Positions 57,124-64,000 of a DNA stretch of 64,000 nt are shown piece by piece. The notes under the pieces are model-generated. The model was not told the origin of the DNA and did no database searches. It saw only the letters and a list, made by a program, of their open reading frames with translations. The stretch comes from a bacterium. Lineage in GTDB: Bacteria > Vulcanimicrobiota > Vulcanimicrobiia > Vulcanimicrobiales > Vulcanimicrobiaceae. The DNA lies in NCBI GenBank assembly GCA_028869385.1, contig JAGWSR010000048.1, positions 1 to 64,000 of the forward strand, given 5' to 3'. The position numbers and the translations under genes are program-made. Each line of letters starts with the position of its first letter. The stretch's first letter is position 1.

Positions 57124-57567
57124 ATGGCAGGTTCCTACAACCGCGTGATCCTGGTCGGCAACCTTACGCGCGACCCCGAGATCCGCTACACGCAGTCGGG
57201 CAAAGCCGTGACCAAGTTCACGCTTGCGATCAACAACCCGCGCAATAAAGAAGAGACGACCTACGTGGACATCGTCGCGTGGGATCGCCTTGGTGAGACC
57301 TGCAACACGTATCTGAAAAAGGGCTCGAGCGCGCTCGTCGAGGGCCGCCTGGTGATCCGCAGCTACGACGACAAAGACGGCAACAAGCGTAAGGCAACCG
57401 AAGTCGTGATCGACAACATGCAGATGCTCGGCGCGCGCGGCGAAGGCGGCGGCATGGGCGGCGGAGGCGGCGAATACGCCGGCGCCCGCAGCAGCGGCGG
57501 AAGCTCGAGCAGCGCCCCATCGAACGACACCTTCGGCAACGACCTCGACGACGAAATCCCGTTCTAA
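57124..57567 (+). CDS. ssb: Single-stranded DNA-binding protein
   Basis: The 147-residue protein has an OB fold (NRVILVGNLTRDPEIRYTQ, then TYVDIVAWDRLGE, LVEGRLVIRSYDDKDG). A glycine- and serine-rich linker and the acidic partner-binding tail DDEIPF follow. It protects single-stranded DNA in replication and repair. It follows rpsF by 110 bases. A 98-bp module that begins 15 bases after its stop marks the start of the mobile region. Confidence 0.96.
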   Translation: MAGSYNRVILVGNLTRDPEIRYTQSGKAVTKFTLAINNPRNKEETTYVDIVAWDRLGETCNTYLKKGSSALVEGRLVIRSYDDKDGNKRKATEVVIDNMQMLGARGEGGGMGGGGGEYAGARSSGGSSSSAPSNDTFGNDLDDEIPF

Positions 57568-57582
57568 TGGGCAATATTTCTA

Positions 57583-57680
57583 TTAAGTTAAGATAGCCCG
57601 CAAAGCAGAGCGAAAAACTAATAACGACAGCGTACAGGCTGCGAGCAGAGGGGTCGGCAAATGCCGGTCCCTTTTCTTAA
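57583..57680 (+). repeat. Left flanking module (R1)
   Basis: It starts TTAAGTTAAG at 57583-57592 and ends CCGGTCCCTTTTCTTAA at 57664-57680, with a terminator inside. It shares both ends with a module at 63803-63901, while the middle matches only loosely (TAGC, GCAG, then GA-AAAACT). The end sequences TTAAG and CTTAA are also complementary to each other. It may be a small RNA gene, an attachment site, or both. Confidence 0.6.
57650..57675 (+). terminator. Intrinsic terminator in module R1
   Basis: GGGGTCGGC at 57650-57658 pairs with GCCGGTCCC at 57663-57671 (two G-T wobbles) around an AAAT loop, followed by TTTT. It would end ssb transcripts or a small RNA that starts in R1. Confidence 0.8.
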
Positions 57681-57709
57681 TGGCAGCTCACGTTAACTTT
57701 ATATTCTCG

Positions 57710-57739
57710 TTGCACACTTCATGCGAGCCATTGTAAGAT
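57710..57739 (+). promoter_or_regulatory. Promoter of the recombinase operon
   Basis: TTGCAC at 57710-57715 and TAAGAT at 57734-57739 are separated by 18 bases. The expected transcription start is near 57746, which is the A of the ATG. A GGAG sequence ends only 1 base before the ATG, too close to act normally. The message may therefore be leaderless. Confidence 0.5.
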
Positions 57740-57745
57740 AGGAGC

Positions 57746-58978
57746 ATGACCGAGCTGGCGGTAGACAGCGACCGCGTTGCGCTTTACCAGGTTCGCGTGT
57801 GTCGCATGACCGATGGGGAACGACTGCCGCTCGTTGTCAACCGTCGCGGGCTTCCCGTGCCGCTCGCCAATCAATGGTCGCTGTTTATCCGGCGTCCACG
57901 ACTGCAATTCAATTCGCTCGCCGAAGAACTGCGAACTGTTGCCCACGTCTACGACTGGGCACATCGCCGGCGTATCGATCTGGACGTGCGCCTCAAATCG
58001 GGTAACGGTTTGCAGCCGGCCGAGATCAGCGCGCTGTACCAGAACCTGCGGTATGCTCGCCCATTCGGACGCCAGTCCGCAGCGCGCCGTTTGACGGACG
58101 TTCGTAGCGCGCAAGTGGTCGCGGGCAAGGTTCATGCCGTTCGCGTCGCCACTGCACGTGAATTTCTCTTGTGGGCGCTCGAACGCACGCTGTACCGGCT
58201 CGACGTCGCCGATCCGCGCGTACTCGCAATTCGCGATCGCTGCGAACAGCTACGCCGTTTGGCAAAAGAGTATCTGCGCGGATCATCGGATGCCGGGTCT
58301 CCTCGCGTTGGTCTGAGCACCGAACAGCGAGTGCGACTCCTAAAAATAATCGATCCAAGCGACGACCGCAATCCTTTCTCGCGCACTGTTCGCTTCCGCA
58401 ACTATGTGCTGATTCTCCTAATGCTGACGTTCGGATTCCGCCGTGGTGAGACACTGAAGTTGTATGTTAGCGACGTGAACGTTAGAGGGCGTCGTCCGTC
58501 GCTGCGCGTTGTAAGGAGGCCCGGGGACGCAAACGATCCCCGAGCAATCGAACCGGCGGTAAAGACACTTGGGCGTGAAGTACCCTTTTCGGCCGAGATG
58601 GCGAAGCTGCTCGATGTCTATATCCAAGATCACCGTCCTCGCTTTCCCGGCGCTGGCGAGTCGCCATTCTTGTTTTTTTCAGAAGACGGGCAGCCGCTTT
58701 CGCTGCGTATGGTCAACGCGGTGCTTGAACAAATCTGTCGGCGCTTTCCGGAGTTTGATGGCGCTCTCTCGCCGCATGTCTTGCGCCACACGTACAACGA
58801 TATGTTGAGCGAGAGTGCTAGCGCTAGCGGCATCGAAGGCGAAACGTTCAGGCAGGCGCAGAACTACCTCAACGGTTGGCAGCTCACCAGCGATCAGGGG
58901 GCGACGTATTCGCGTCGTGCGATTGAGGAACAGGCTCGGAATATATCTTTGGCTCACCAGCGGAGCTTATTTGCATGA
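57746..58978 (+). CDS. Tyrosine recombinase 1 of the element (TnpA-like)
   Basis: This 410-residue protein starts with an N-terminal segment (YQVRVCRMTDGERLPLVV, then GLPVPLANQW) typical of this recombinase group, followed by a SAM-like core-binding region. The catalytic domain has Arg232 (GFRRGE), His344 and Arg347 (PHVLRHTY), Trp378 in the H/W position and the nucleophile Tyr388. All catalytic positions look intact, so it is probably active. It cuts and rejoins DNA for integration and excision. The stop overlaps the next gene by 4 bases. Confidence 0.88.
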   Translation: MTELAVDSDRVALYQVRVCRMTDGERLPLVVNRRGLPVPLANQWSLFIRRPRLQFNSLAEELRTVAHVYDWAHRRRIDLDVRLKSGNGLQPAEISALYQNLRYARPFGRQSAARRLTDVRSAQVVAGKVHAVRVATAREFLLWALERTLYRLDVADPRVLAIRDRCEQLRRLAKEYLRGSSDAGSPRVGLSTEQRVRLLKIIDPSDDRNPFSRTVRFRNYVLILLMLTFGFRRGETLKLYVSDVNVRGRRPSLRVVRRPGDANDPRAIEPAVKTLGREVPFSAEMAKLLDVYIQDHRPRFPGAGESPFLFFSEDGQPLSLRMVNAVLEQICRRFPEFDGALSPHVLRHTYNDMLSESASASGIEGETFRQAQNYLNGWQLTSDQGATYSRRAIEEQARNISLAHQRSLFA

Positions 58979-60465
58979 ACGCTTCCGTGCTCTCCGCTGG
59001 CGTCGATGATCGCGAGTTTCCCTCTCACGTGTTGGACGTTCAAGGTCTCGTCGTTGATACATCATCGTCGTACTGGAGGCTTCACGACTCGACGTTTTCG
59101 GCGAACATCTCCTGGAATCGACTGCAGGGATGCTGCGAGGATACGGTTCGGGCGCTAAAGTGGCACCTGATTCGCTTGATAGAAACTCGCTCAGCGCGGT
59201 ATGCCTGCAATACGGTAAGGTACATCGGCGACTTCTTGTGCACGCTTCGAGACAATCGCGACGAGATAGAAAATATCGTCACGCTGAAATCCCTCGTTTG
59301 GTACCTGGAGCAGCTGCGCAAGAAGCGGATCGAGTATCAGTTTCACCACATCCGCGCATGGTATATCGCGTCAACAGATCGACTACTGCCGGCTTTTGAC
59401 GATGAAACTGCATTCGCCCTATCCGATCTTCGTGTTGGAGGCAACAAGAAGGGCTTTGCAGTGCTCTCCGACGATCCGGATGAAGGTCCGCTAAGCGAGT
59501 ACGAGGAGGCAGCGCTTCGTCGCGCCCTAATTCGAGATACTGGGCCAATCCAGCAACGCGCGGCACTGTGGCTTGCCTTAGCTTTTGGGACGAACCCCGC
59601 GAGTCTCAGCTTGCTGCGCGAGGAAGATTTTACGGTACACCAGTTCGAAGACGACACGCCGCCAGCATACTTTCTAAACATACCGCGCATCAAGAAACGC
59701 ACGCTTCCAAGAGCTGAGTTCAAGATACGGTACGTGGATCAACCGCTCGCAGCGATCATTCGAGAGTTGTTGGATTTCAACAGAACGTTCGGCGATAGTC
59801 ACCAACGCTGCCGGCCCTTGTTCCGGCTCAAGGAACCGCGCCCTTCTCTCAAGGACGGACCACTCGCCGATTTCGCCTTGCATTATTCCGCCGGTGGTAT
59901 TACCGGTCTTATTTCGGATTGCGTGAGGCGGCTGGATGTTGTTTCGCCGCGGACGAATACGCCGCTTAGAGTAACAACACGCCGACTGCGTTATACGTTT
60001 GCATGCAAGATGGTTCGCCAGGGAATTGCCTCACGCGATCTCGCCGAGCTGCTCGATCACACCGATACTCAAAACGTTCAGGTATATTACAACGCCGATT
60101 CGCGTTTCGTCGAGCGACTCGATCAAACGATCGCTGAACAACTGGGTCCGAGAGTCCGCGCTTTTATGGGCGCGATTCTTCAGCGGAGCGATGAGCAGGT
60201 CGATCTCATTCCGTATCGAGATCTTCCGGAACTCGGCCAATGCGGCGCCAGTTTCGTGTGCGGTTTATCGGCGCCTAAAAACTGTTACACGTGTACAAAA
60301 TTCAAGGCCTTCTCAAACGGCCCTCATGAGGCCGTCCTCGCATCACTCATCAATGAGCGCGAGGAACTGCAAAAAGCGGGGCACGAGCGAATCGCCGAAC
60401 AACTTGACGAAACGATCTTAGCAGTCGGGGAGGTCGTTGCAAGAACGCACGGCGACGCCCTATGA
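58975..60465 (+). CDS. Tyrosine recombinase 2 of the element (active site altered)
   Basis: The 496-residue protein has a recombinase C-terminal half with Arg339 (TRRLRYTFACK), His362 (ELLDHTDTQNVQ) and Tyr371 or Tyr372 (VYYN). The first catalytic Arg is replaced by Asn207 in FGTNPASL, and the usual box II His before LRYT is Thr. It then ends with a cysteine cluster (CGASFVCGL, NCYTCTKF) likely to bind zinc. It may act as a structural or regulatory partner of the other two. Both ends overlap neighbours by 4 bases. Confidence 0.85.
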   Translation: MNASVLSAGVDDREFPSHVLDVQGLVVDTSSSYWRLHDSTFSANISWNRLQGCCEDTVRALKWHLIRLIETRSARYACNTVRYIGDFLCTLRDNRDEIENIVTLKSLVWYLEQLRKKRIEYQFHHIRAWYIASTDRLLPAFDDETAFALSDLRVGGNKKGFAVLSDDPDEGPLSEYEEAALRRALIRDTGPIQQRAALWLALAFGTNPASLSLLREEDFTVHQFEDDTPPAYFLNIPRIKKRTLPRAEFKIRYVDQPLAAIIRELLDFNRTFGDSHQRCRPLFRLKEPRPSLKDGPLADFALHYSAGGITGLISDCVRRLDVVSPRTNTPLRVTTRRLRYTFACKMVRQGIASRDLAELLDHTDTQNVQVYYNADSRFVERLDQTIAEQLGPRVRAFMGAILQRSDEQVDLIPYRDLPELGQCGASFVCGLSAPKNCYTCTKFKAFSNGPHEAVLASLINEREELQKAGHERIAEQLDETILAVGEVVARTHGDAL

Positions 60466-62483
60466 AGACTCGAGCCATCACCGCCACCGTAGCAAGTCCG
60501 GCTCTTCACGATGCCAAAAGAAATCTGGAGACATTCGTTACTGCGGCAAAGGCACAGCAACCATATGCTGGCGTCGTTTGGGATACGGCCGCCTGGGACA
60601 TCAGCGCGGCTGACGCGCGAGCGCGAGCGCACCTGCGCAATAAACAATCACTCCTGTTTACGGAACACGCTGAGACGAGGGTGCCGATTCATCGGCGCAC
60701 GTTATTCATCGCTCCCTTCGCCGATCTCGCAAAAGCATGCATCGTGACGCGGCGCGTGAATCGTGGTATCGAGAGCGGTCCACAACGCGTCTTCATGCGC
60801 GCTGCCCGCTACCTCTACGCGGCATGTCCTCTACCCGTTCGCCGTGACCCCACGCTGTTGACCCGTGAATACTTCGTACGCGCTGAAACCGCTGCTTTTC
60901 AGCGGGAGAAAGCATCCTCGGCATATCGGGTCGGGCGATTTCTCGAAGACTTCGCGCGTCTCGTGGATCGGCACGGCCTCGCGCGGATCAGCATCGATTA
61001 CCGTAGCGCAATTCCACGACCGCAAAGCGTTTTGGACAGGACCTCTTCCGCGTTTGAAGAGCGCATAAAAGAACTGCCGTCGAGTGAAGTGCTTGACGCT
61101 TTGTCGACGATCGCGAATAACCCGGAACTGGAGAGTAGCCCCTTCGATCTGATCCGCATTCGCATTGCCGAATTACTCTTTGTTTGCGGCTTTCGAATTG
61201 GCGAGGTACTGACGCTTCCCGCAAATACACTGGTTCGTGAACTGGTGTCAAACGAAGCGCGTGAGATCCGCCACGATTCGATTTCTGGAGCGCCCGTAGA
61301 GCGCATTGGATTGCGGTACTGGCCCGAAAAAGGCGGTGAGCCGATTGTGAAATGGGTGCCAACCGTCGCTAATGACCTTGTCCTAAGGGCGATTCACGAC
61401 ATCGACCGAGTTTGCTGCGAACCCAGGAAGAACGCCCAATGGCTAGAGGCGCATCCGGGGGAGGTGAATATCGCTCTTGACTCAGAGCGCCTTTTCTCAA
61501 TGAGCGAACTTGCCCAGCTGCTCGGATTAGCGAATTCCGGCAGCGCTATGCAATGGGTGAAATCCAAGAAGCTATCGCTAGCCCTGACGGCAGTCCGCAG
61601 TCGGGCGTTGCGCATCAGCGGGCATCATATCGTGCGAGCTTTGGCATCGGATCGGTACGATACGCCGGTGTTGGTTCGGGACAATGGTACTGTGCAAACT
61701 TTAGGCTCTTCTCTTTTCGTGGTATTTCGGAACGAAGCGCACACACGACGAGCGAGTTTGAAATTTAGCTCTGTTCCGATCACGTGGGGACAAATCAGCG
61801 CGTTCCTTTGCGGAAGGCCCGGCGTCCCCTCAATATTTGCGCGTTTTAATTGCAGTAATCAGGATGGTAAGCCTTTTAGGATCAAGACGCATGATTTCCG
61901 CAAGATTGTTAACACCGTCGCTCAACGGGGCGGCCTTTCGCAAATCGAGATCGCGCGCTGGATGGGCCGGCGACGCGTTGCCGACAACAGCGCCTATGAC
62001 TATCGTACGGCTGCAGAGATGGCTGGCGAGATGCGCAAACTGCTTCTGAGGAACGAAGTTTACGGGGTCATCGCCGATCAGGTGAAAACGCTGCCGGAGA
62101 GTGAGCGGAAAGTTTTTCTCGAATCACGGCTCGCGATGGTCCACACGACGCCGCACGGCCAGTGCGCTTCAAATATTGCAGAGAATCCATGCGCGACTGC
62201 TGTATCGTGCCTTGGAGGGTGCCGGCACTACATGCGCCGCAAGGGTGATGAGGTGAGTCGACGGCGTTTGCTAGCTATAGAGCAGGACACACTTGTGGCT
62301 TTGCAACGAGCGCGTGAAGCGCGCAACGAAGGGAAATACAACGCCGATAATTGGGTCCGCGCGCAGGAAACTGTGTTGCGAACCGTGCGAGCAGCGCTTG
62401 CGATCGACGACGACGCAACCGTTCAGCTAGGTGCTCTCCGACCCGTAAATCCAGACGGGTCTGCTCTTGGAGAGCCTCTGTGA
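60462..62483 (+). CDS. Tyrosine recombinase 3 of the element (TnpB-like, large)
   Basis: This 673-residue protein has an N-terminal core-binding part, then Arg245 (GFRIGEVLTL), His477 and Arg480 (THDFRK), and Tyr512 (NSAYDY). The H/W position falls in RWMGRRR. An insertion of about 200 residues separates the first Arg from box II. The C-terminal part has several cysteines (CASNIAENPC, SCLGGCRHY), as in TnpB of Tn554-type elements. It probably works together with recombinase 1. The stop overlaps the accessory gene in GTGA. Confidence 0.85.
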   Translation: MKTRAITATVASPALHDAKRNLETFVTAAKAQQPYAGVVWDTAAWDISAADARARAHLRNKQSLLFTEHAETRVPIHRRTLFIAPFADLAKACIVTRRVNRGIESGPQRVFMRAARYLYAACPLPVRRDPTLLTREYFVRAETAAFQREKASSAYRVGRFLEDFARLVDRHGLARISIDYRSAIPRPQSVLDRTSSAFEERIKELPSSEVLDALSTIANNPELESSPFDLIRIRIAELLFVCGFRIGEVLTLPANTLVRELVSNEAREIRHDSISGAPVERIGLRYWPEKGGEPIVKWVPTVANDLVLRAIHDIDRVCCEPRKNAQWLEAHPGEVNIALDSERLFSMSELAQLLGLANSGSAMQWVKSKKLSLALTAVRSRALRISGHHIVRALASDRYDTPVLVRDNGTVQTLGSSLFVVFRNEAHTRRASLKFSSVPITWGQISAFLCGRPGVPSIFARFNCSNQDGKPFRIKTHDFRKIVNTVAQRGGLSQIEIARWMGRRRVADNSAYDYRTAAEMAGEMRKLLLRNEVYGVIADQVKTLPESERKVFLESRLAMVHTTPHGQCASNIAENPCATAVSCLGGCRHYMRRKGDEVSRRRLLAIEQDTLVALQRAREARNEGKYNADNWVRAQETVLRTVRAALAIDDDATVQLGALRPVNPDGSALGEPL

Positions 62484-62923
62484 AGAAGAAGCGCTCCGTA
62501 GCAAAAGGCCGGATGACGCAGGCCCACATCAGCGCCGTCGTGGCGGAGATCGAAGCCTATGACCGCGGCGAACGGGAAGGCGCGTTGAGTTGGTCGCATC
62601 TCGAAAAATTTTCCGGCTTCAGTCACGTCGCGCTTTGGCAAAAAGAACCGATCAAGAATGCGTTCCAACGCGTGAAACAGCGCGCGCGCCGCGACGCGAC
62701 TCCGGCCATCAAACCTCATCGCACCGTCGATAAACGCATATCAAGCATGCAAGAGGCTATCGACGAACTACGTGAACTCATTCGCGCTTACGATGAGCAA
62801 TGGGCGCTTTACGAGCACAACCTGCATCGCTTAGGTCTGGACCCAGAGGAACTTCGTCGACCGCTCGATCGCCTAAGCCGGCGCGAAGTACGAGGCCCAG
62901 GTCGCAGCGACTCCACATGGTGA
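62480..62923 (+). CDS. Small basic accessory protein (TnpC-like)
   Basis: The 147-residue protein is basic at its start (KKKRSVAKGRMTQ). It contains a predicted HTH-like region (LSWSHLEKFSGFSHVALWQ) and a long C-terminal helix that may form a coiled coil (RISSMQEAIDELRELIRAYD). Position, size and coupling match TnpC, the third protein of Tn554, which affects the efficiency and orientation of transposition. The assignment is by context; sequence identity to TnpC was not tested. Confidence 0.65.
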   Translation: MKKKRSVAKGRMTQAHISAVVAEIEAYDRGEREGALSWSHLEKFSGFSHVALWQKEPIKNAFQRVKQRARRDATPAIKPHRTVDKRISSMQEAIDELRELIRAYDEQWALYEHNLHRLGLDPEELRRPLDRLSRREVRGPGRSDSTW

Positions 62924-63065
62924 CACCGTGAACCGCACGGTCTTCGCGCTCGCGACAGTTTGGCTTGCGGTTACAATCGGTTTGCAGCGCGGTTCTGCCA
63001 GCGGCTGCAGGTCCTAGTTATCGCTTTAATTTCTTCTTTTTCCTAGAATCGTCGAGCTTTTCTTT

Positions 63066-63320
63066 ATGCCGGGAAAATTCAAAGCAGTCGGTGTAAAGAT
63101 GCCGGCAGCTTCTCGTACGAACGCCGTACGCGCTTCTCTTTCGGGCACACCGCTCGTTTCGAAGCCTTACAAAATTCGAACGGCGGTATGCGAAAGCGGC
63201 GAGCGAATGCCTTTGCTAGTGGAAGCTACTATCGGTCTTCCGATGGTTACTGCGAATCAATACGTGTTGCGCGCCAGGCACCCGTCATGCGACGTAGCGG
63301 CCATCGGGACGCGTGGATAG
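63066..63320 (+). pseudogene. N-terminal remnant of a second TnpA-like recombinase
   Basis: The 84-residue open frame matches the start of recombinase 1: YKIRTAVCESGERMPLLV and GLPMVTANQY here, YQVRVCRMTDGERLPLVV and GLPVPLANQW there. It ends after about 60 aligned residues, before any catalytic region. A -10-like TAGAAT lies at 63044-63049. It is best read as the 5' end of another element of the same kind, the rest of which was deleted. Confidence 0.7.
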
Positions 63321-63393
63321 TCAAGACTCTCGACGCCACGTTCAAGTTGGCAGGACGATAGTGAGAGTTGTTCGTCTCGGCGAAGAGGCAAAG

Positions 63394-63765
63394 ATGTCTT
63401 TGTATAGGCGGGTGTTCACAGTATTTCTGGCGTCGCCCGGAGACTTGGCCAAAGAACGGCACGCTGCGAAGCAGATAGTCGACGAACTGTCGCCTATCGT
63501 GAGCGAGGTGGGCGTCGCGCTTGAGCTACTTGAATGGGAAGACACGCTGCCCGGTGCTGCGCGACCACAGGAGGTGATCAATAGGGATCTCGACCAGGCA
63601 GATCTGCCGGAGCGACGCCTTATAACCCTCCGCAGAATTGCGGCTCATATTGCCAGCTTGGCGGACGAAATCGGCGTCGAAGCGCTTCATCAGCTTGATG
63701 AGCGTGCGCGACTCTACCTCTCGCAGGCGACCGACGAGTTCCAGCGGACGCGGCTCAGAAGTTAA
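63394..63765 (+). pseudogene. Truncated DUF4062-type gene
   Basis: The 123-residue protein starts RRVFTVFLASPGDLAKERH, then DELSPIVSEVGVALELLEW and a VINRDLDQADL segment, the N-terminus of DUF4062 proteins. The normal continuation (LFVGLLW) is missing. Instead the frame jumps to a helical end (TLRRIAAHIASLADEIGV) that looks like the C-terminus of the same kind of protein. An in-frame internal deletion is the likeliest cause. DUF4062 proteins are often large multidomain proteins in mobile or defence regions; this remnant is probably not functional. Confidence 0.6.
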
Positions 63766-63806
63766 CGGTTTTCATTGCATATTCTAGGGGGATGTAAAAC
63801 CGTTAA
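63762..63806 (+). repeat. 11-bp perfect inverted repeat at the left of module R2
   Basis: TTAACGGTTTT at 63762-63772 and AAAACCGTTAA at 63796-63806 are perfect inverted copies with a 23-base spacer. The left arm overlaps the stop of the DUF4062 remnant and the right arm overlaps the first bases of R2. It may be a recombinase or regulator binding site. Confidence 0.65.
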
Positions 63807-63901
63807 GTTAAGTAGCGAAGGCAGTCGTCGAGAAAACTGCGCTCGGTATTAGAAAATAACCAAGGGATCGAGGCTAAGGCCCCCGGTCCCTTTTTTCTTA
63901 A
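63803..63901 (+). repeat. Right flanking module (R2)
   Basis: It starts TTAAGTTAAG at 63803-63812 and ends CCGGTCCCTTTTTTCTTAA at 63883-63901, the same ends as R1 with two more T bases. Its length is 99 bases against 98. The middle differs at many positions, so it is an old or rapidly changing copy. Confidence 0.6.
63864..63896 (+). terminator. Intrinsic terminator in module R2
   Basis: GGGATCG at 63864-63870 pairs with CGGTCCC at 63884-63890 (one wobble), extended by G72-G73 with C82-C83 around a bulged A, and six T bases follow at 63891-63896. Confidence 0.75.
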
Positions 63902-63962: not shown

Positions 63963-64000
63963 CGCATGCGTTTTGGTTACCCGAGCCTTATCTCATGCGC

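Follow-up and report, generated by a model that had tools for sequence, protein, structure and literature searches.

The ssb locus and its two repeated modules

The window, meaning the whole stretch of 64,000 nucleotides analysed here, shares its coordinates with an 81,369-bp contig (C5) of the draft genome G000, so the right flank beyond the window could also be read. The draft consists of 152 contigs, and all three junctions described below lie on this single contig. The host gene and insertion target, ssb, occupies positions 57124 to 57567 on the forward strand, as do all features given here (SSB family, E=1.5e-34). It is followed by an operon of overlapping genes on one strand, three of them recombinase-like and the fourth small, encoding proteins of 410, 496, 673 and 147 aa. 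The first gene, ginA (57746 to 58978), encodes a tyrosine recombinase (Pfam PF00589, 5e-13) that is 29-35% identical to the GinA proteins of 12 further GInts, a class of genomic island that has three integrases. It overlaps by 4 bp with ginB (58975 to 60465), whose product is a second tyrosine recombinase, 27-39% identical to other GinB proteins and matching NCBIfam NF041502 at 6e-86, under that model's cut-off. The large, divergent recombinase-like protein encoded by ginC (60462 to 62483) is 31% identical over 657 aa to a Desulfovibrio GinC (E=1e-103). The small TnpC-like product of ginD (62480 to 62923) is 31% identical to a Paraburkholderia GinD (E=2e-13) and 53% identical to a ginD relic in G002, a genome of the same genus. 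Conserved catalytic columns are intact in GinA (R347, Y388), GinB (R337, H362, Y371) and GinC (H477, R480, Y512).

Downstream of these genes, in the cargo of what we call element A, a remnant of another ginA N-terminus lies at 63066 to 63320 and was also seen by tblastn. Over 36-39 aa it is 42-44% identical to the N-termini of GinA proteins (E between 2e-6 and 2e-5), and it points to an earlier GInt at the same place. Element B begins at 63782 and continues past the window end at 64000 to contig position 69336. It carries mercury resistance, and besides mercuric reductase (MerA, 551 bits, cut-off 454) and a second FAD reductase its genes encode an ArsR-type regulator and membrane and thioredoxin-like proteins. 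No Gin homology was detected between 63782 and 69340 at E<=0.01, and the genome contains a single ginC.

An earlier sequence-only reading of this DNA had singled out two modules, R1 (57583 to 57680, 98 bp) and R2 (63803 to 63901, 99 bp), and we recovered both at these positions and lengths. Their shared ends are exactly identical, with TTAAGTTAAG at the left and CCGGTCCC, a T run (four residues in R1, six in R2) and CTTAA at the right. Global alignment of R1 with R2 scored 24, against a mean of -5.5 and a maximum of 9 in 500 shuffles. The middles had been described as different but with short matches; they do differ, and the matches are at chance level, with a score of -2.0 against -2.5 +/- 3.6 for shuffles. 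Within the 64 kb window TTAAGTTAAG and GGTCCCTTTT each occur exactly twice. The combined R pattern matched exactly twice in the whole 3.08-Mb genome (control hits, 0), and this strict search yielded no copies besides R1 and R2.

A hairpin terminator was said to close each module, and this was borne out. The R1 terminator (57650 to 57675) begins 83 bp beyond the ssb stop and consists of GGGGTCGGC, AAAT and GCCGGTCCC followed by TTTT (-16.3 kcal/mol); in a strict scan none of 30 shuffles was equally good. In R2 the terminator (63864 to 63896) is formed by GGGATCGAGGCTAAGGCCCCCGGTCCC and TTTTTT (-16.6 kcal/mol). A generic terminator scan overlooked both hairpins, probably by extending the stem into the T run, and our own scans detected both. 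The similarity of the modules begins 21 bp earlier and in register, as TTCTA lies 21 bp before TTAAGTTAAG both times (57562 and 63782). The TTCTA before R1 belongs to the end of ssb and the one before R2 adjoins the right end of element A. In R1, TTAAGTTAAG occupies 57583 to 57592, and its second half, GTTAA, starts at +25 from TTCT.

Three junctions and the limits of the island

Three junctions were read on the contig. The first (J1, 57559 to 57592) joins ssb to the left end of A and reads ...ATCCCGTTCTAATGGGCAATATTTCTATTAAGTTAAG; the second (J2, 63761 to 63812) joins the right end of A to the left end of B and reads ...GTTAACGGTTTTCATTGCATATTCTAGGGGGATGTAAAACCGTTAAGTTAAG; the third (J3, contig 69304 to 69336) joins the right end of B to host DNA and reads ...CTTAACGGTTTTCATTGCATATAACCGTTCTAACCAAACC. 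The ssb end CCGTTCTAA is common to J1 and J3, the right end TTAACGGTTTTCATTGCATAT to J2 and J3, and TTCTA followed by 16 bp and TTAAGTTAAG to J1 and J2. These shared sequences resolve the island (57568 to 69336) into element A, from J1 to J2, and element B, from J2 to J3, with R1 and R2 as their left ends. The attachment core CCGTTCTAA is the last 9 bases of ssb (57559 to 57567) and is repeated exactly at contig 69328 to 69336. This 9-bp exact direct repeat thus flanks the whole island, at 57559 and 69328, and the inner junction has only TTCTA.

The right end of A is GTTAACGGTTTTCATTGCATA (63761 to 63781). With up to three mismatches allowed, TTAACGGTTTTCATTGCATA is found in this genome only here and at contig 69305 to 69324, and a copy with one mismatch is present at the ssb-linked relic of G002. 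The TTCTA core of the A/B junction (63782 to 63786) has an inverted repeat, TTAACGGTTTT and AAAACCGTTAA, on either side. This junction (window 63782 compared with contig 69325 to 69330) is exactly 6 bp (AACCGT) shorter than the right ends of B at the host border and of the G002 relic, and J2 is therefore not a perfect canonical site. The original description of GInts proposed 6-nt staggered cuts and reported deletions of 2 or 6 nt at restored sites (PMC5385486), to which the 6 bp lacking at J2 may be related.

The host flank beyond 69340 corresponds to DNA downstream of ssb in G002, with identities of 57% (at 70934) and 75% (at 77664), and likewise in G001 (50%, at 71527). The gene rpsR was considered as the far flank of the island and rejected, as it does not adjoin ssb in this genus. 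A native terminator hairpin lies to the right of J3 (contig ~69377 to 69411, -30 kcal/mol), and the island has displaced this ssb terminator 11.8 kb downstream. Since the native terminator sits beyond J3, the predicted terminator in the right-hand shared part of each module is the element's own and lies inside it.

We conclude that R1 and R2 are very probably the left ends of two GInt-type elements that stand in tandem, in head-to-tail arrangement, at the ssb 3' end. Each would comprise a recombinase-site box, a spacer and a terminator. Of the roles proposed earlier, that of attachment sites or ends of nested elements largely holds, each left end being an attachment-site arm plus terminator, with the elements in tandem and not nested. 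The modules had also been said to bracket the recombinase region; both are instead left ends, matched by right ends at 63761 to 63781 and at contig 69304 to 69324. The left ends mapped from the junctions coincide with R1 and R2 and do not lie elsewhere.

Relatives and a common left-end rule

Element A belongs to the GInt / Tn6571 family. Its four Gin proteins are homologous to those of GInts elsewhere and follow the order ginABCD, and judged by its sequence it combines these genes with the catalytic residues and imperfect direct repeats at a specific site. Insertion of GInts at the ssb end has been documented (PMC5385486), and the name Tn6571 comes from PMC10121019. Homologous Gin proteins were present in 12 GInts, located on plasmids and on a chromosome, and 10 of these GInts adjoin ssb. 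These relatives include one directly after ssb in a Desulfovibrio genome and others after ssb on plasmids of Pseudomonas, Escherichia, Serratia, Xanthomonas, Citrobacter and Burkholderia. In G002 a decayed relative lies at ssb, and its right end has one mismatch and then CCGTTCTGA. Searches of 149 genomes of the phylum with GinC and GinB revealed no second complete GInt. A match to the right-end pattern in viral contigs proved to be a chance hit in a microvirus-like contig.

Several further loci deserve mention. In G002 a DDE transposase gene lies between ssb and the relic GInt genes (L063, 8082 to 9692). On a P1-like plasmid prophage (NZ_CP148442.1; L076/L086), the P1 ssb gene is occupied by a GInt that has a type I restriction system and whose right end resembles that of the F-plasmid GInt. 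The ssb-linked GInt region of Pseudomonas aeruginosa pF045_1 (L066/L081) has a full mer operon beside an IS66-type element, as well as SIR2 and methyltransferase genes. After the ssb stop in five relatives (G002, G001, G013, G014 and G004; L035, L036, L041, L042 and L043, respectively) we found ATG(C/T)TG(T/A)CTCAC or a similar sequence, and several of these ends also show repeats of GAAATG-type units and, some 100 bp further along, a hairpin resembling a terminator. This sequence is not a GInt end and may be the end of another kind of ssb-targeting transposon.

Thirteen left ends, which include related pairs, were aligned on the core. In 10 of the 13, an automated count covering +18 to +27 from the core found TGTAA, TGTTAA or GTTAA 23-25 bp from TTCT, against a mean of 0.5 and a maximum of 4 of 13 in shuffles. 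One further box (L068) is present by eye and was missed by the automated count; L059 and L074 are without a box at this distance. The second half of TTAAGTTAAG in R1 and R2 is this same TGTAA/GTTAA box, and we infer that the TTAAGTTAAG part represents half of the recombinase core site. By a relaxed scan, all 13 left ends have a predicted intrinsic terminator some 30-120 bp beyond the gene end; by a strict scan, 10 of 13 do. Among shuffled left ends, 22% yield a hairpin of this kind in the relaxed scan. We rejected TTAAGTTAA as a family-wide motif because it is present in the window ends and the F-plasmid GInt and is not general. Comparisons of F-plasmid and P1 insertions placed CCGTTCTGA at right junctions, and no extra copies of the ends were found inside the F and P1 GInts.

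Escherichia coli AVS0967 (L108, NZ_CP124398.1, 3168700 to 3212000) carries two complete GInts in tandem at ssb1, the first with type I restriction-modification, RecQ and DprA genes and the second with Avs4. The second occurs alone at ssb1 in strain AR435 (L109), where its left end is identical over 168 bp to that in AVS0967. As this identity is kept behind ssb1 and behind another GInt, the core, the box and the terminator are parts of the element rather than of the host. The arrangement in AVS0967 is like that described here, with ssb, a GInt, a right-left junction, a GInt with its own terminator, and host DNA. It differs in that both elements retain ginABCD and the cargo is anti-phage defence rather than mer.

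These features suggest how such ends could work. The Gin recombinases would bind boxes flanking the core, and strand exchange would follow cleavage in TTCTA or close to it; insertion at the TTCTA core would leave the ssb reading frame whole. The terminator of the element would end the ssb transcript at the border, with R1 standing in for the native ssb terminator, and would act as an insulator, so that gin and cargo genes are not driven by ssb. Termination and insulation by R1 and R2 are suggested by the hairpin and T run. We dropped the idea that R1 everywhere merely replaces a native terminator, as the empty F-plasmid site reaches the next gene within 62 bp; insulation would hence be the more general role. 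A second element could use the hybrid site at either border, giving rise to tandems.

Element B, alternative readings and the ecology of the ssb end

Element B has a left box at +25, a right end that is the same as that of A and nearly equal to that of the G002 relic, the core CCGTTCTAA and an inverted repeat of about 12 bp at its ends. As it lacks ginABCD, we do not count it among the GInts and class it as a gin-less element that has their ends; it could move only if Gin proteins were supplied in trans. The GinABCD of A probably moves it, either in trans or along with A itself; for movement in trans taken by itself, we put the chances at about even or slightly better. The wider proposal that GInts have passengers, cargo-only units with a left-end module and a right end moved in trans by a neighbour's GinABCD, we judge to be a little short of evenly balanced. 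Alternatively, B may have been a complete GInt whose ginABCD genes were deleted after integration, leaving immobile debris between A and the host. Decay does occur nearby, in the ginA remnant at 63066 to 63320 and at ssb of G002, where a ginD relic is accompanied by an inserted transposase gene. Both ends of B and its mer genes look intact, however, and no trace of gin remains in it, and we regard this account as possible yet somewhat unlikely. It is compatible with tandem ends and contests only the mobility of B.

We consider it improbable that the island is a single GInt with mer as ordinary cargo, R2 and the A/B junction being what remains of a left end duplicated internally and no second mobile unit being present. 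Such a GInt would have the usual layout, ginABCD at the left followed by cargo and the right end, and a normal size at 11.8 kb, and the ginA remnant does lie just before R2. At 63761 to 63781, however, a right end abuts the core and R2, forming a complete right-left junction like the one in the E. coli tandem, and R1 and R2 differ throughout their middles, which argues that R2 is not a recent duplicate of R1. The suggestion that the modules represent a small non-coding RNA gene, for instance one regulating ginABCD, present in two copies whose 5' and 3' ends are conserved, can be given very little credence: both modules are about 98 nt long, end in a terminator and fold well (-30 and -32 kcal/mol for the whole modules), but they have no Rfam match, no sigma-70-like promoter site and no copies away from the two junctions, their interiors are no more alike than shuffles, and the shared 5' box is explained by its distance from the attachment core in other GInts.

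The island resembles the GInt / Tn6571 group of Bardaji et al. 2017 (PMC5385486) in that ginABCD has the same order and sizes, cargo is carried, the insertion lies where ssb ends, the direct repeats are imperfect and about 10 bp long, and GinD is similar to TnpC. In its main text that paper describes neither terminators nor GInts in tandem, and no feature common to the 3' end is reported; in the present case, left ends have a terminator and a box whose distance from the core is fixed, and the ends are shared by a second element, which is gin-less. Terminators are likewise unmentioned in the main texts of the papers on strand-biased circularizing elements (SEs) and on E. coli defence islands. 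SEs (PMC10214605) also have four recombination genes with a TnpC-like fourth, placed at the left end, and a 6-bp footprint. Their order is intA-tfp-intB-srap with the catalysis-deficient gene second, whereas the large divergent gene of A is third and matches GinC; SE and GInt proteins fall in separate clusters (PMC10214605), and gene order sets A apart from SEs.

Tn554 is similar in its TnpC-like protein, recombinases at the left end and site-specific target, but has two recombinases (tnpA, tnpB and tnpC only) where A has three recombinase-like genes and ginD. The target of Tn554 is radC. RIT elements encode three recombinases, 315-410 aa in length, and are bounded by terminal inverted repeats of 34 bp, unlike the 410, 496 and 673 aa proteins and fourth gene of A and the repeat of about 12 bp at the ends of B. 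In ICE/CIME accretion, elements stand in tandem at one att site and one partner is without recombination genes, as with A and B. That system (ICESt1-type, cited in PMC10214605) differs in having a single Int/Xis system and a conjugative partner. For Tn916, which is unrelated to GInts, a published account (PMC11658703) describes experiments in which a terminator near one end of the integrated element blocks unwanted expression driven from outside; the role is experimental there and deduced from sequence here.

The element type and its ssb target were already known. The gin-less passenger and the general left-end terminator and rule appear to be new, to a modest extent. GInts are widespread and bring with them genes for resistance, toxins and anti-phage defence; their ends were earlier described as having no feature in common for self-recognition. 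The box near the core, at its fixed distance, and the built-in terminator together offer a simple rule by which GInt left ends may be located, even where gin genes are absent, and the terminator would help explain why insertion right behind ssb is tolerated. The end of ssb would then be a docking site at which elements stack, as in E. coli, and if passengers such as B are indeed moved by their neighbours, resistance or defence cassettes could queue at ssb somewhat as cassettes do at an integron.
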